A stretch of 64,000 nt of DNA from Haloprofundus halophilus. Its GTDB lineage: Archaea; Halobacteriota; Halobacteria; Halobacteriales; Haloferacaceae. Shown in pieces: positions 35,084-47,254 of this stretch. The position numbers and the translations under genes were made by a program. Below the pieces are notes generated by a model that was not told the origin of the DNA, searched no databases, and saw only the letters and a list, made by a program, of their open reading frames with translations. Positions within the stretch are counted from its first letter, which is position 1, and each line of letters opens with the position of its first letter. The stretch is taken from contig NZ_QQRR01000001.1 of assembly GCF_003439925.1 (NCBI RefSeq), positions 1,674,001-1,738,000 on the forward strand, in the 5' to 3' direction.

Positions 35084-35150
35084 TGCCGTCGGAGACGGCG
35101 TCTGTTCGGGAGAAAGGAAAAGAGAGGCCAGACGGGATTCGGCCCGCCTA

Positions 35151-35298
35151 CCGTCCGACTGCTCGAATACGGACCGTCCAACTGCTCGAATACGGACCGT
35201 CCAACTGCTCGAACACGGACCGTCCAACTGCTCGAACACGGACCGTCCAACTGCTCGAACACGGACCGTCCAACTGCTCGAACACGGACCGTCCGACT
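35151..35298. repeat. 23-bp tandem repeat, six copies
   Basis: The unit CTGCTCGAAYACGGACCGTC plus CAA begins at 35159, 35182, 35205, 35228, 35251 and 35274. The copies are almost identical: the Y position is T in the first two and C in the rest. The array is preceded by a partial unit (CCGTCCGA). It ends 29 bases before the DUF5783 ATG, so it lies where the promoter of that gene would be expected. Confidence 0.95.
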
Positions 35299-40164: not shown

Positions 40165-41622
40165 TCAGTCGCCGGTGATGCCGAGTTCGGTGTCGAGGCG
40201 AGCCATCGACTCAGTGTCGAACTCCCCGACCAGGTCGGTGTAGTCGACGTGGTCGGTCCGCGACTGGTACTCCTCGGCGAGCGCCAGCACGGTCGCGTCG
40301 TCGTACGCACGGCCCACGATTTCGATGGCGGTAGGGAGGCCGCGCTCGCCGAACCCGTTCGGCACGGAGACGCCCGGCAGTCCCGCGACGTTCGAGGCCG
40401 CACCCATCGAGGTGCTGCTGTACTCGGCGAAGTAGTCGACGAACGGCGACCCGAGGGGGCTGGCGACCGTCGCTCGCGTCGGGACGACGACAGCGTCGTA
40501 GGGTGCGAGCGTCTCGTCCAACTCGCGCTGTGCGATGGTCCGAACGCGGTTCGCGGTGATGTAGTCCTCGGCGAGGACGGCTTGCTGGGCGTAGCCGCCG
40601 ATTTGGGAGGCCTCGTTCGTGAGTTCGAGCGCGTCGCCGCGGGCGACGAACTCCGCGAACGCCGACGCCGATTCGGCGTCGATGACCGTCCCCGCGACGG
40701 ACGCGTACGGGATATCCGGCAGCGAAATCTCCTCGACGTCGGCGAACTCCGAGAACGTCTCGACCGACCGCCGGTAGTTCTCGCGGACGGCCGGTTGCTC
40801 GTTCTCGCCCGCGCTCGACAGCACCGCGATTCTGGTTTTGCCCCGTAGTCGAGCCGGCGGCTTCGTAGGTGGGCGCTCGGTCGTAGTCGGGTCGCGGTCG
40901 TCGGCTCCGGCGATAACCCGATAGACGTGGTCACAGCCCCGCGCGGAGCGACACATCGGACCGAGTTTGTCCATCGTGTACGACAGCGCCATCGCTCCGT
41001 ACCGACTCACTCGCCCGTAGGTCGGTCGAAAGCCCGCGATGCCGCTGAACGCCGCCGGCGTGGTGATAGAGCCGAACGTCTCGCTGCCGACGGCGAAGCC
41101 GACGAGACCGGCCGCGACGGCCGCGCCGGGTCCGCTAGAGGAACCGCCGGCCCACGCGTCGGTGTTCCAGGGGCTGCTCGTCGGCCCGGTGAAGGTGGCG
41201 TCGGCCGAGTCGTAGAGGAACCCGCCGGCGAGTTCTATCATCGCCAGTTTGGCGACGAGAACCGCGCCGGCCTCGTCGAGGCGTTCGACGACCGTCGCAT
41301 CGTAGTCGAACTGCTGGTCGCGCAGCGGTGCGGCCCCCCACGTCGTCGGATACCCCTCCGCCGCCAGGAGGTCTTTCGCGCCGTACGGGATGCCGAGCAA
41401 CGGGCAGTTCTCACCGCCGCCGTTCGACAGCTCCTCGTCGGCTTCGTCGGCAGCCTCCAGCGCGCGTTCTTCGGTTACGGTGACGACGGCGTTCAGCTCG
41501 TCGCCGACGCTCCGCAGTCGTTCGATGTACGCTTCGGTCAGCTCTCGGGAGGTGTACTCGCCGTTTCGGAGTCCCTCGCCCAGTTCGTCGATAGTCGAGA
41601 AGAGTACCTCGTCGTCGACCAT
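40165..41622 (-). CDS. Amidase (amidase-signature family)
   Basis: A 485-residue amidase-signature enzyme with the Ser-cisSer-Lys triad: K83 (IPYGAKDLL), S161 (AGGSSSGPG) and nucleophile S185 (SETFGSITTPAAFSG), spaced 24 residues between the two serines as in the family. It hydrolyses an amide, and the substrate is unknown. It has no signal peptide. Its ATG overlaps the stop of the upstream Tat-signalled small protein by one base (TGATG). This coupling suggests that the two proteins form a complex. Confidence 0.92.
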   Translation of the reverse strand: MVDDEVLFSTIDELGEGLRNGEYTSRELTEAYIERLRSVGDELNAVVTVTEERALEAADEADEELSNGGGENCPLLGIPYGAKDLLAAEGYPTTWGAAPLRDQQFDYDATVVERLDEAGAVLVAKLAMIELAGGFLYDSADATFTGPTSSPWNTDAWAGGSSSGPGAAVAAGLVGFAVGSETFGSITTPAAFSGIAGFRPTYGRVSRYGAMALSYTMDKLGPMCRSARGCDHVYRVIAGADDRDPTTTERPPTKPPARLRGKTRIAVLSSAGENEQPAVRENYRRSVETFSEFADVEEISLPDIPYASVAGTVIDAESASAFAEFVARGDALELTNEASQIGGYAQQAVLAEDYITANRVRTIAQRELDETLAPYDAVVVPTRATVASPLGSPFVDYFAEYSSTSMGAASNVAGLPGVSVPNGFGERGLPTAIEIVGRAYDDATVLALAEEYQSRTDHVDYTDLVGEFDTESMARLDTELGITGD

Positions 41623-42026
41623 CACTCCTCACCTCGGTACGGTTCGAACGTGTACGCCGGGTCGGTGGTGTACGCGAGGTCGAACTCGCCGACGGCCCCG
41701 CCCGAGGCGAGAATTCCCGCGAGTCGCGTTCGAACGGCGTCGAGTTGGTCGTCGCTCAACTGGTCGCCGTAGTTCGCCTCGACGTAGGCGAGGAGCGCGT
41801 CGGTTCCGACGGGCACGTCCTCTTGCTGAGTGGCGGCGGCGGAGTCGGCAGAGTCGTCGCCATCGCCAGTGCCGGCGTCGTTTTCTGCAGCGGCGGCCGC
41901 CTCCGCGGAACCGAGGAAACCCGCGGCTGCGAGTGCGCCCAACACCGTCCGTCGTCGGAGTCCAGCCGTCTCTTGCCCGTAATCGCGTTCGTGTGTCGTG
42001 TACGTCGGGTCGTGGAATCTCGTCAT
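41622..42026 (-). CDS. Tat-signalled AtzG/GatC-like amidase partner
   Basis: A 134-residue protein. A twin-arginine signal spans GLRRRTVLGALAAAGFLGSAEA (RR at 25-26), followed by an Asp/Ser linker (about 48-70). The C-terminal domain (ALLAYVEANYGDQLSDDQLDAV and on to GEFDLAYTTDPAYTFEPYR) has the shape of AtzG/DUF4089 and GatC: a helical pair ending in an acidic Phe/Pro tail. AtzG and GatC are small partners of amidases. This one would be exported and could carry the amidase out with it (inference). The gene overlaps the amidase start. Confidence 0.65.
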   Translation of the reverse strand: MTRFHDPTYTTHERDYGQETAGLRRRTVLGALAAAGFLGSAEAAAAAENDAGTGDGDDSADSAAATQQEDVPVGTDALLAYVEANYGDQLSDDQLDAVRTRLAGILASGGAVGEFDLAYTTDPAYTFEPYRGEE

Positions 42027-42169: not shown

Positions 42170-45100
42170 TTACATGAAGTCCGCGATACCGCTCTGCTTG
42201 TTCTTGTCGTTCTCGAAGACGCTCTCCAGACTCTTCTTGAGCACTTCGAGGCGCTGTTTCGTGTAGTCGCGGCAGCCGAACTCCTCGGCCACCTCGATGG
42301 CGGTGTCCATGTACTTGTTCACCGAACCCTGGTGGACCGTGAGGTTGACGCGCCCGCCGCACTCGCGGCAGTCGCCGGTGAGGGGCATCCGCCGATACTT
42401 CTCGCCGCAGTCGAGACAGCGCGTCTTCTGTCGGGAGAAGGCGCGGAGGTTGCCGATGAGGTCCGGCAGGAAGTGGTACTCGATGACCCGCTCGGCGACG
42501 TCCGTCTCGTCGACCGCCCGGAGTTTCCGCGCGAGATGCAGCTGCGCGTCCATCTTCTCGGTCATCGAGCCGAGCGTTTTGTACGCCGACAGCGCCGGAC
42601 CGAGGTGGATGTTCGACGTGTCGTGGGTGTGATAGAACTCGGAGTATTCGAGGTCGGTGCCCAGGTTGTCCTCGGCGATGGTGATGAGCTCCTCCACCTC
42701 GCCGGGGTCAGCCATCTCGCGGGTCGCCTCGTAGAACTCCCTGGGGTACTGCCGGACGATGTCCATGTTGTGCGCCTCGTCGTCGATCTCGGAGGGGTCG
42801 ATGCGCGAGGACATGACCAACGGTGCGTCCATCTGCCCGCCGCGCTTGTCGGGGAGGAACTCCTTCGAGAAGTTCAGCAGGCCGTCCATGAGGAGCATGA
42901 CGCAGTCCTCGTCTCCGTCGCATTGCTTCACACCGATATCGTTCGCAACGAGTGAGTGAGTATCTTCAACCGTGAGACAGTAGGTGTAATTGACGTCTGA
43001 TGCTACAACCTCTACGTCGCCCACCTCTTCGACGAGCATATCGGTACCACCGTCCGAAAACACTCTCCGTGAACGTGCAGCGGTCTCTTGGATATTCGAT
43101 AAGAGCGTCGCTTGCTTACGTTCTAGATGGAAGCCGACAACCTCAGCGAAGCGTCGTGCATCCTCTGACGAGAGAGTAAAGACGAAACTGGGCCGCGACA
43201 TTGACGGGTCGTCGATTTCGTAGTAGTCCGGGAACTTCGCGGCGAGCGGTTCTGGTCCTTTTCGCTCTACGCGGCCTTTGATTCCGAGTCGCGTAAGAAG
43301 CGCGAGGACATCCTCGGCCAACTCCGGACTCACTGTGGTGGCATGTACGGTAAGCGAGTTCGAGGATGCGTGTCCATCACCGCTGAAGTAACCACGAAGG
43401 AACCCCGAAACGATCGCATCGGGTGCATCGAAGATACATTGTGGAACACGTTTCCGATGAGCGTGTGTCCCTGCGTCGAGAACGGATTCGAAGAAGGTCC
43501 GAAGCAAACGTCCTGAAACGGTTACCTTCGCGTGGTTTTCGCGATACGGTTCGACACCGAAGGAATCTCTGAGCGTCGAGACGAAGAACTCCCGCGCGCT
43601 CGCTTCGACTCCACAGAGCGTCGTCTGGTGAATCGTCCCTTTTGGGGTCTCTTGCTCACGGGCAAACCCTTCAGCGGCGTAGTAACCGAGAAGAGTCGAC
43701 ACACGCTCGTCCAAAGTTACGTGTCGGTTGATTTCGGTCGAATCGCGCTTCATCCCGAGCGAAGCGGTTTCTGGCACAAATTCGAGAACGGACGAGACGG
43801 AACCCAACACTTCCACAAGAAGGGCGGCTGGGATACTTTCTCGGTACAGATAGTTGCTTAGTGCTTTTTTCGAGAGACCGAGATGCTCTGCAGTACTCTT
43901 CAGAGGGTAGAACCGACCGTCACAATTGGGAGCAAGCGTACGCTTGAACATACTGTACAGCGTCTCTTTCTCTATGCCTTTTACCATGAGACGCTCGTTT
44001 TCGAGAGCCTCGCTGCGGAGGAACAGTTCGAGAAGATCAAACTGGGGGAACTGTTCCGAGACGTCGAGAGAGTCTAAATGACTTGGAGTGACGAGGAGAT
44101 CCGAACTTGAGATCTCGGAGGCACGTTTGCCCTCGATGCATGCGTTCTCTGGGTCGTAAACTTGTAACTCGTGGTCCGGCGTGACGGTTATTTCGCGTCC
44201 GCTCCGCGTCTCAACGCGCACGAGGTGTCTCGGTGCTGGATGTTTAGAGACCGCATCTACAGATTTCAGCACTTCCACCCCATCGCTGTCGAGAGAGGGA
44301 ACCAGTACATCTTTGTCCAACTCCTGCACTAGCGTCCCGAAATCGTCCGTCTCGGGGTCGTCGAGTCGCGCTTCGACAAGCGATTCGATATCGTCGTAGT
44401 GCCATTCACCCGCTTCGTCCTCGAACCAAACCTTCGTCTCCGGGTGGAAGCAGTTCCGCCGCTTCGCCGCGTGGAAGTAGGGATGTGCGTACCCCACCGC
44501 CGCCGACGTGAATCCGACGACCCGTCCGACGACCGCCGCCGACGTGTGCGGTGCCATCCCGAACACGAGTTCGCCGATGAGGTCGTCGCGCTCGTTCACC
44601 TCGTAGAACGCCGGAAGCCCGTAGTAGCTCTCCAGGAGGTCGTCGACGAAGTTCGCCGTCTTCAGCATGTGCTCGGCCGCGCCGTCCGAGAGGACGATGT
44701 CCTGCACTCTGAGTTCGAGCAGTTGGTCGTCGTGGCGCAGCGGTTCGCCGTCGATGTCGCGCTCGTAGCCGAGTTCGCGGAAGTGCTCGGCCGTCACGTC
44801 CAGTTCTTCGGGCCTGACCGCGGTGACCGGCAAGTCGGTCATGTCGTAGCGGACCGTGCCGTCCTTGAACGCGGTGACGCCGTGTTTCGCGCGGAGAACT
44901 CCCTTCTCCATCGCCTCCGGCGTCTTGTGCGCCGAGGTGAGCCCCTTCACGCCTTTCAGAATCTTGTACGAGGCTTTGCGTTCCCCGACGGCGTCCAAGG
45001 CCTCGGTGAGTTCGCGACCGATATCGACGTCGTGCCAGTCGGGGCTCTCGACCTCGCGCTCGCAGCGCGGGCACTCGACGCGGCCCGCCTCGTCGGGTTC

Positions 45101-47254
45101 GACCTCGATCTCGCAGTCGGTACACTCGTAGTACGGTTCGGTGTGGCCGCCGCACGCGGGGCAGTTCGGCTTGTAGGTGTGTTCGCCGCAGGCGGCGCAC
45201 TCGCGGCGGCCGACGCGCACGCCGACGACACCGCGGCGACCCCGGTCGTCCATCTTCCGGGCCGCCTCGCCGACGTCGCGCTGGCTCCCGCCGGCCTCAC
45301 CGATGGGGAACAAGGTGTGGACTGCGGGAGAGAGGTCGCGGCTCATGGACTTCTCGGGGCGACCCATTCGGTTGCCGATTCGGGTCGGTGCGCGCTCCTG
45401 GACGGTGAACGGCGCGACCTCGTTCGCGGCTTTCACCGCGTTGTCGCCGCCGTCCCAGTTCCGGGCTTCGGCCGAGAGCTCCTCGGCGTCCCACGTCTTT
45501 CGGAGCCCGTCGTCGACGCCGAGCGTCCGCGCGAGCAGCCGCCACTCCGGAATCCGGAGGGCGTCCTCGGTCTGGGAGTGTTCGACGAGCAGGTGTTCGA
45601 GCGTTCTCCTCGTGGTCTCGGTGCGCTCGATAACGAGCAGACCGTCGACGAGTTCACCGTCGGAGACGGCGTCGGCGAGCGTCTCGAACGCCGAGACGGA
45701 GATGTCGTGCCAGAGGTAGGTGAACTTCGGATGGAGCGGGGCGTCGTACTCGGTCGCCCACTCCAGCGCCTGTTCGGCCGTCGGCGATTCGAGGTCGACG
45801 CGCGGCGAGTCGCGCAGCGCCTGTACGTCCGCACCGGCGTGGTCGAGGTCCTGTATCCACCACTCGGGCGTGTAGGAGGCGGGCGCGAGCGGGTGGTTGT
45901 TCTCGACGAACTCGCCGTAGTTGACGAGATACTCGCCGAGGTCGAGAATCTTCTCGACGCCGTTTCTGAGTTCGAGCGCCTCCTCGGGGTCGTCGATGCG
46001 CCGGACGTCGCCGTTGGCGAGGCGCACCGTCGGCCCCTCGATGGAGTCGACGGGGACGACGCCGCCCGCTTTCCCGGGTCGTTCGGTCTTTATCTGGGTT
46101 CCCGTGGCGACGAAGTCGTCGACGACGTGCATCGTCGCCGGGTGGACGCCGGCCGTGGCGAACCCGTGGTTTCGCGCGCGGCCGTATCGGAGTCTGAACC
46201 CCCCTTCTTCGGACGGGTGACCGAACACGGGGCGGCCCGCGATGAGGTCGCGCAGGAACTTGGTCGCCGGTTCGACGCGCGGCGGGCCGTCGGGGTCGGG
46301 CGAGTCGGCTTCGGAGTCGTCGTCTCCGTCTTCGGCGGCTTCGTCCTCGGTGTCCGCCGCGTCGTCGCCGTCGGCGGCCTCCTCGTCTTTCGTCTCCGCC
46401 TCCCCGTCGTCTTTGCCGATGGTACCGTCGATGAGGTCCTGGAGCCACGGCCAGTCGACTTCGTCGAGTTGGCGGGTGTAGCGCTGAATCTTCGGCGCTT
46501 TCAGCGCGATGCCCTCGGCCATGACGAGACACATCCCGCCGCGGGCGGAGTTGGTGTCGACGCGGTCGAGGTCCCGGTAGCCGGAGACCTCCTCGTCGCC
46601 GGTCGCCTCGCCGTCGAGCATGATGGGCATGTTCCGCGAGATGAAGCGCGTCTCCTTGTCCTTCGGCGAGTACTGCAGGCCGGTCTCCTTGTCGTAGAGG
46701 TCGACCTCCTCGACGTAGCGTTCGACCTCGTCGTCGCGGGCCTTGTACTCGTCGAGGCCGATGAGCGTCCGCGTGTAGTCGGCGACGAGCACCGAGAGCG
46801 CCTGCGCCGTGCCGCCCGCGGAGCGAATCGGCCCGGCGTAGTAGACGTTGACGAACTCGGTTCCGTCGTCGTTCGAGAGGATCTCGACGCGGTCGATACC
46901 CTCGATGGGCGCGGCGACGACGCCCTCGGTGAGGAGGGCGACGGCCGTCCGAACCGCGCCTTCGACCTTCCCGGCCCGGGTGTCGTAGTCGCCGACGCGG
47001 CCCTCCGCGAAGTCCTCCGCGAGGGCGAGCGCCGCCTCCTCGCGGGACATCTGTTCTTCGAGTTCGCGGACGCGTTCGGCGACGCCCTCGATTCCGAGGA
47101 TGTTCTCGACGCGGTCGGCCATGTCCTTGGCGACCGGAATCTCGACCTCGGTGCCGGGGTCCATGCCTTGCTCGCGGGCGGCGTCGGCGAGCTCGAAGGC
47201 CTCGTCGAGTCGGTTCTCGATGCGCGCGAAGTAGCGCTCGTCGTCCGGTCTCAC
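42170..47254 (-). CDS. polC: DNA polymerase D large subunit (DP2) with intein
   Basis: A 1694-codon gene for the catalytic subunit of archaeal family-D polymerase. After removal of a 510-residue intein the mature protein is 1184 residues (N-extein 934, C-extein 250). Cys-rich zinc modules occur at CAACGEHTYKPNCPACGG and CLDCGEKYRRMPLTGDCREC. A long acidic linker of Asp/Glu lies about residues 275-320. The catalytic NCDGD motif of the double-psi barrel is split by the intein. The start is GTG, one base after the stop of the upstream PPC gene, so the two form an operon. The small subunit DP1 is not in the window. Confidence 0.96.
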   Translation of the reverse strand: MRPDDERYFARIENRLDEAFELADAAREQGMDPGTEVEIPVAKDMADRVENILGIEGVAERVRELEEQMSREEAALALAEDFAEGRVGDYDTRAGKVEGAVRTAVALLTEGVVAAPIEGIDRVEILSNDDGTEFVNVYYAGPIRSAGGTAQALSVLVADYTRTLIGLDEYKARDDEVERYVEEVDLYDKETGLQYSPKDKETRFISRNMPIMLDGEATGDEEVSGYRDLDRVDTNSARGGMCLVMAEGIALKAPKIQRYTRQLDEVDWPWLQDLIDGTIGKDDGEAETKDEEAADGDDAADTEDEAAEDGDDDSEADSPDPDGPPRVEPATKFLRDLIAGRPVFGHPSEEGGFRLRYGRARNHGFATAGVHPATMHVVDDFVATGTQIKTERPGKAGGVVPVDSIEGPTVRLANGDVRRIDDPEEALELRNGVEKILDLGEYLVNYGEFVENNHPLAPASYTPEWWIQDLDHAGADVQALRDSPRVDLESPTAEQALEWATEYDAPLHPKFTYLWHDISVSAFETLADAVSDGELVDGLLVIERTETTRRTLEHLLVEHSQTEDALRIPEWRLLARTLGVDDGLRKTWDAEELSAEARNWDGGDNAVKAANEVAPFTVQERAPTRIGNRMGRPEKSMSRDLSPAVHTLFPIGEAGGSQRDVGEAARKMDDRGRRGVVGVRVGRRECAACGEHTYKPNCPACGGHTEPYYECTDCEIEVEPDEAGRVECPRCEREVESPDWHDVDIGRELTEALDAVGERKASYKILKGVKGLTSAHKTPEAMEKGVLRAKHGVTAFKDGTVRYDMTDLPVTAVRPEELDVTAEHFRELGYERDIDGEPLRHDDQLLELRVQDIVLSDGAAEHMLKTANFVDDLLESYYGLPAFYEVNERDDLIGELVFGMAPHTSAAVVGRVVGFTSAAVGYAHPYFHAAKRRNCFHPETKVWFEDEAGEWHYDDIESLVEARLDDPETDDFGTLVQELDKDVLVPSLDSDGVEVLKSVDAVSKHPAPRHLVRVETRSGREITVTPDHELQVYDPENACIEGKRASEISSSDLLVTPSHLDSLDVSEQFPQFDLLELFLRSEALENERLMVKGIEKETLYSMFKRTLAPNCDGRFYPLKSTAEHLGLSKKALSNYLYRESIPAALLVEVLGSVSSVLEFVPETASLGMKRDSTEINRHVTLDERVSTLLGYYAAEGFAREQETPKGTIHQTTLCGVEASAREFFVSTLRDSFGVEPYRENHAKVTVSGRLLRTFFESVLDAGTHAHRKRVPQCIFDAPDAIVSGFLRGYFSGDGHASSNSLTVHATTVSPELAEDVLALLTRLGIKGRVERKGPEPLAAKFPDYYEIDDPSMSRPSFVFTLSSEDARRFAEVVGFHLERKQATLLSNIQETAARSRRVFSDGGTDMLVEEVGDVEVVASDVNYTYCLTVEDTHSLVANDIGVKQCDGDEDCVMLLMDGLLNFSKEFLPDKRGGQMDAPLVMSSRIDPSEIDDEAHNMDIVRQYPREFYEATREMADPGEVEELITIAEDNLGTDLEYSEFYHTHDTSNIHLGPALSAYKTLGSMTEKMDAQLHLARKLRAVDETDVAERVIEYHFLPDLIGNLRAFSRQKTRCLDCGEKYRRMPLTGDCRECGGRVNLTVHQGSVNKYMDTAIEVAEEFGCRDYTKQRLEVLKKSLESVFENDKNKQSGIADFM
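42923..44452 (-). other. Intein with LAGLIDADG homing endonuclease
   Basis: A 510-residue in-frame insert. It begins with Cys (CFHPETKVWFEDE) and keeps the block-B TPDH motif (TVTPDHELQVYD). It carries two LAGLIDADG motifs (LLGYYAAEGFA and FLRGYFSGDGHA) and ends TVEDTHSLVANDIGVKQ, followed by the extein Cys. The C-terminal residue is Gln rather than Asn and the penultimate is Lys rather than His. GC content is visibly lower than in the flanking exteins. It sits between N and C of the catalytic motif, a known intein site in PolC (Pol-II) genes of Pyrococcus and Halobacterium. Confidence 0.95.

Follow-up and report, generated by a model that had tools for sequence, protein, structure and literature searches.

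An AtzG-type subunit with a twin-arginine signal as the probable export carrier of a signal-less amidase in haloarchaea and bacteria

Two adjacent genes in the window (the whole stretch of 64,000 nucleotides that was analyzed) very probably encode a single extracytoplasmic amidase, with the small upstream partner taking the folded enzyme through the twin-arginine (Tat) route as a hitch-hiker, a reading drawn from sequence comparisons and structure models. The partner would be a subunit of the AtzG type, docking onto the amidase in the cytoplasm by means of a two-helix domain and an EPAxxFxxYR tail, as suggested by its homology with the AtzEG system and by the model of a natural fusion. The Tat signal of the partner would then send the complex, already folded, across by way of the Tat translocase, and the signal-less amidase would go with it as a hitch-hiker; this step is proposed from relatives that carry signal, partner module, and amidase on one chain, and by analogy it would rest on those relatives in the haloarchaea. 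Outside the cell, an acidic linker would space the complex from the signal or the cleavage site, and the K-S-S amidase would hydrolyze small amides or peptide amides, its presumed class of substrates. The Tat route accounts for 39 to 55% of secreted proteins in haloarchaea (PMC2945643), and hitch-hiking through it is known for redox complexes (PMC10924467). The original prediction is thereby supported: of the three outcomes named as refuting it, two were examined, a missing profile match and, by way of a natural fusion, a missing interface, and neither came out against it.

Organization of the gene pair

The partner gene lies directly upstream of the amidase gene, and one base is common to the TGA stop codon of the former and the ATG of the latter (Table 1), which agrees with the overlap originally predicted; the resulting TGATG is likely to couple the translation of the two genes. 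The amidase starts at the ATG at 41622 or at a GTG at 41625. An in-frame TGA is found two codons ahead of these starts, so that an N-terminal extension or a signal peptide on the amidase is impossible. Similarly, 51 split or partner-less relatives begin at the amidase domain, with no signal-like N terminus. Thus, the twin-arginine signal is present on only one of the two subunits, the partner.

The residues K83 (41374-41376), S161 (41140-41142), and S185 (41068-41070) form the Ser-cisSer-Lys triad of the enzyme, and all three were conserved in every one of 50 aligned relatives (50/50). The window gene is therefore the complete, signal-less amidase that had been predicted. It is one of only two PF01425 amidases in its own genome, the other being GatA, and it scored below the NCBIfam cut-offs for AtzE and GatA (230 and 267 bits versus 461 and 481, respectively).

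Three congeners proved to carry the pair as well, and its retention there speaks against a chance arrangement. None of its neighbors was conserved, as judged by inspection, and they gave no hint of the substrate of the amidase. A promoter and terminator scan at the pair found nothing with its bacterial-type models. Directly upstream of the pair, positions 42170 to 47254 (minus strand) encode the large subunit DP2 of DNA polymerase II, with an intein containing a LAGLIDADG domain.

Table 1. Positions of the partner and amidase features in the window
Feature	Coordinates	Strand	Basis
Partner gene, 134 aa, ATG start	41622..42026	-	Tat signal, linker, and AtzG-like domain
Tat signal peptide, residues 21-47 (AGLRRRTVLGALAAAGFLGSAEAAAAA)	41886..41966	-	Sequence; purifying selection; similar signals in most split relatives
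Acidic, fast-evolving linker, residues 48-71	41814..41885	-	Codon-position differences, four congeners
AtzG-like domain, residues 72-134, predicted two helices and extended tail	41625..41813	-	hhalign; AF2 model; PDB match 6c62_C
Putative docking tail DPAYTFEPYR, residues 122-131, family pattern EPAxxFxxYR	41634..41663	-	Conservation; retained in reduced partners
TGATG stop/start overlap	41620..41624	-	Sequence
Amidase-signature gene, 485 aa, no signal peptide	40165..41622	-	PF01425, E 2.4e-86

Signal, linker, and tail of the partner

The partner carries the motif of Tat substrates, with RRx followed by two hydrophobic residues and then by an uncharged hydrophobic stretch (RRTVLGALAAAGFLG, residues 25 to 39). 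The arginine pair R25-R26 (41949-41954) lies within R-R-R-T-V-L, and the protein ends in TTDPAYTFEPYRGEE / DPAYTFEPYRGEE; both the pair and the C-terminal DPAYTFEPYR had been predicted and were confirmed to the residue. Among 21 split partners, the arginine of the tail was invariant, and the proline and the phenylalanine were nearly so.

Four congeneric sequences were compared by codon position. Changes at positions 1, 2, and 3 amounted to 0.12, 0.06, and 0.44 in the signal and to 0.05, 0.03, and 0.18 in the C-terminal domain, whereas the linker gave 0.30, 0.29, and 0.40. Purifying selection therefore acts on both the signal and the C-terminal domain and leaves the linker unconstrained.

TatC genes are present in the genome to which the window belongs. 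Three TatC-domain matches lie together at G000:C1:1614649-1617674, of which two share a single 829-codon frame as a double TatC; C2 has a fourth match, of lower strength.

Homology of the partner with AtzG

A Pfam search with the window partner gave no match to PF13318 (DUF4089) at an E value of 10 or below and none to GatC. Searches for PF13318 in its own genome and in related genomes rendered no match above the cut-off, and sequence searches of NCBIfam and PDB, made with the partner or with the alignment of split partners, gave nothing usable. Among family members, PF13318 matched 2 of the 21 split proteins and 3 of the 24 fused ones, with a best E value of 0.0068. Since direct library searches were empty, a profile-profile comparison was needed. 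The partner alignment was built from relatives gathered upstream of amidases, and the AtzG/DUF4089 reference proteins were drawn from annotated AtzE operons, including that of pADP-1.

When the 21 split partners were compared with 12 AtzG/DUF4089 proteins by hhalign, a probability of 95.3 was obtained (E value, 2.2e-8; 55 columns), with the alignment covering the whole domain. The score was 41, while the maximum after shuffling was 13, and none of 100 column shuffles scored as high. Against haloarchaeal GatC, the split partners alone gave 13%, with 1 of 100 shuffles scoring higher, and the split and fused partners together gave 66%. Direct membership in GatC was rejected, the value for the split partners alone not being significant; at the level of profiles, the partner stands nearer to AtzG than to GatC. 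Of the AtzG/GatC-like domain proposed in the original prediction, the AtzG part thus stands as a relationship seen only between profiles, and the GatC part applies only in a wider sense.

A 71-aa protein at L128:1256-1471, upstream of an Agrobacterium amidase, has EPSTVFHL near its end and was missed by PF13318. It looks like another AtzG-like partner, and such partners seem to be under-detected.

Structure models

The mature chain of a natural fusion (L075, 534 residues) was predicted with a pLDDT of 93.7 and a pTM of 0.94. Its 90 N-terminal residues account for 17% of the length, and such a pTM would be hard to reach unless these residues were firmly placed on the amidase in the model. The tail, without regular structure, reached a pLDDT of 91 to 94 in this fusion, and it was unordered, at 60 to 66, in the window partner domain folded alone. 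This suggests that docking orders the tail, in a comparison of different proteins folded from different alignments.

The AF2 model of the window partner domain (72 residues) contains helices at 13 to 27 and 30 to 51. Among the PDB chains offered, its top match was AtzG (6c62_C; Z score, 4.6; 62 of 66 residues), a match that is weak by itself and agrees with the AtzG homology. For its part, the L075 model gave its best PDB matches with GatA (Z score, 48), AtzE, and peptide amidase (44.5 to 44.8). Plant FAAH aligned with it from residue 24 on, and the N-terminal part of that enzyme may occupy a place similar to that of the partner module.

Split and fused layouts of the family

A survey of haloarchaea for amidase-Tat pairs bore out the association of the two parts. 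The amidase clade and the partner occurred in the same 12 of 293 genomes, the two sets coinciding exactly, and the chance of such a 12/12 coincidence is 1.5e-21 if the genomes are independent. The family sample comprised these 12 together with 80 amidase relatives found by scanning genomes of bacteria and archaea. Judged by sequence, the pair represents a system that has no name and is widely distributed, in many bacterial phyla and in haloarchaea.

In the split layout (44 loci), a small upstream gene ends with the EPAxxFxxYR tail. The partner was scored as Tat positive by script in 36 of the 44, compared to 28 of 356 long ORFs at the same loci, and correction by eye, in which L062 and L065 were added and L063 was judged spurious, brought the count to 37/44. 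Over the whole set, inspection discarded the classifier's Tat calls for L063 and L093 as spurious and added L062, L065, L072, L073, L090, and L099. On a Halapricum plasmid (L124:4813-5001), the public annotation starts the partner too late, leaving it 63 codons and no Tat signal; the open frame upstream of the annotated start reads NRRSTLGLLAALGSAG.

In the fused layout (36 loci), the module forms the N terminus of the amidase. By hhalign, this module is homologous to the split partner (97.5%; E value, 7e-12). About 22 of the fused proteins have Tat signals (e.g., RRRFLAYFSGLGLGATLLPGVLWA), 5 have lipoboxes, and the others show no clear signal. A Tat signal and an amidase on one chain, as in these 22 or so relatives, is what the hitch-hiking argument needs. 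In three Latescibacterota (L092, L103, and L106), about 400 additional open residues precede the fused module at the N terminus, and no Tat signal was found.

The five lipoboxes, together with those in partners L041 and L042 (TRRDFALTLGAATLGAC), fit a variant of co-export in which the Tat signal is kept as a membrane anchor, lipid-bearing in some bacteria, so that the amidase would be tethered outside the cell; the long flexible linker after the signal would suit this arrangement as well. However, the window partner has no cysteine and contains an AEAAAAA stretch suited to signal peptidase I, and the signals of fused relatives often end in PGVLWA or PGVLYA. We therefore consider a retained anchor possible, if rather doubtful.

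Unlinked and reduced partners

The surprising part of the system is provided by partners that are unlinked or reduced. No partner was found in the scanned upstream stretch at 12 loci, some of which lie at contig ends (L037 and L047). Nevertheless, seven of eight searched genomes lacking an adjacent partner still have one, in every case with a twin-arginine signal. In six Planctomycetes, the genome contains one strong Tat-signalled partner on another contig, and the notion that planctomycete amidases are partner-less was therefore rejected; the genome search with the planctomycete L038, a MAG, found none. In the acidobacterium L095 (G320:C40:17746), the amidase and a reduced Tat partner share a contig but are not adjacent, the partner gene lying about 1 kb upstream.

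Reduced partners were found in Acidobacteriota and in one Eisenbacteria genome. They mostly have 64 to 107 aa (often 64 to 92 in Acidobacteriota), and of their helical domain, at most part of one helix remains. They keep the Tat signal (e.g., LSRREFA or TSRRRFGK) and a tail such as EPAFVFKA, which would be the parts needed by an export carrier. We consider it likely that these proteins belong to a large amidase family of bacteria and haloarchaea with a detachable export subunit, in which an AtzG-type docking protein acts as Tat carrier and, depending on the lineage, is little more than a signal and a tail working in trans, is encoded far off, or is fused to the enzyme.

AtzE is insoluble without AtzG (PMC6219798), a requirement that makes such a subunit suited to the task of a carrier. 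The same requirement would also fit a partner that is a stabilizing or solubility subunit as in AtzEG, the complex being cytoplasmic and the Tat-like stretch idle, or the free partner alone being exported. Signal-less partners do occur, in four relatives from Chloroflexota and Bathyarchaeota, with three more in Bacillota lacking a clear signal; the AtzG-like subunit thus also serves cytosolic enzymes. For the window pair, a cytoplasmic complex is nonetheless unlikely, given the purifying selection on the signal, its retention in reduced and unlinked partners, and its presence on one polypeptide with the amidase in the fused clade. That the small gene encodes an unrelated Tat protein, accidentally adjacent to the amidase, would agree with the absence of a Pfam match and of other conserved neighbors, but exact co-occurrence, retention when unlinked, and AtzG homology stand against it, and the fused relatives in effect refute it, leaving it next to no probability.

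Evolutionary history

An amidase tree was built by a quick method, with SH-aLRT support and rooted on a single distant GatA. The haloarchaeal amidases formed one group (94), with two Gemmatimonadota pairs as sisters (98), and this joint group was nested within a bacterial clade of split pairs. The split pair of haloarchaea was therefore probably acquired from bacteria, as far as this tree indicates. The fused forms made up one clade (100%), which fits a single fusion event, and AtzE stood apart from the clade of the window amidase (99 to 100% support).

Comparison with known systems

The proposed export carrier would join two known kinds of system, the AtzEG and GatCA partners and the Tat hitch-hikers. 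In AtzEG (1-carboxybiuret hydrolase of Pseudomonas sp. ADP; PDB 6C62), whose two proteins assemble as a heterotetramer, a small non-catalytic subunit is likewise encoded directly upstream of an amidase-signature enzyme, and the layout of two helices and a tail is common to both partners. However, AtzG has only about 68 aa and no signal, whereas the window partner has 134 aa and a Tat signal; AtzE belongs to a separate clade, with a model cut-off above the score of the window amidase; and AtzH was not found in the window's own genome. Regarding GatCAB, the amidase of the fused relative matches GatA best in structure and the partner is remotely related to GatC, but that complex is cytosolic, its gatA cut-off excludes the window amidase, and a separate GatC-GatA is encoded elsewhere in the same genome. 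The peptide amidase Pam (PDB 1M21/1M22) has an amidase-signature fold near that of the fused relative; its structure is a single chain, with no AtzG-type partner in the match.

Known Tat hitch-hikers such as hydrogenase, formate dehydrogenase, and PaoABC likewise have the twin-arginine signal on one subunit (PMC10924467, PMC4273604). The examples in those papers are redox enzymes with cofactors, whereas the window enzyme is a hydrolase for which no cofactor is known, and unlike theirs, the carrier of the window type has shrunk in some lineages to a signal and a docking tail. A literature search in which few subscription journals were covered found nothing joining "amidase signature" with "twin-arginine," nor haloarchaea with twin-arginine and hitch-hiking.

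If the proposal is correct, this would be the first hydrolase-based Tat hitch-hiker system, as far as could be found, and a stabilizing subunit, AtzG, would have been turned into a dedicated export adaptor. Cytosolic-looking amidases of many phyla would then be able to act outside the cell and be missed by secretome predictions. Judging from the reduced partners, a signal peptide may act in trans through a tail of about 20 residues, a combination that could serve to export signal-less proteins, and the history of the family suggests that a two-gene export unit was transferred from bacteria to haloarchaea.

Elsewhere in the window, positions 35150 to 35298 contain a tandem array of a 23-base unit (ACCGTCCAACTGCTCGAACACGG), with 6.5 copies and 97% matches, which sits upstream of a gene that looks NifU-like in its sequence.
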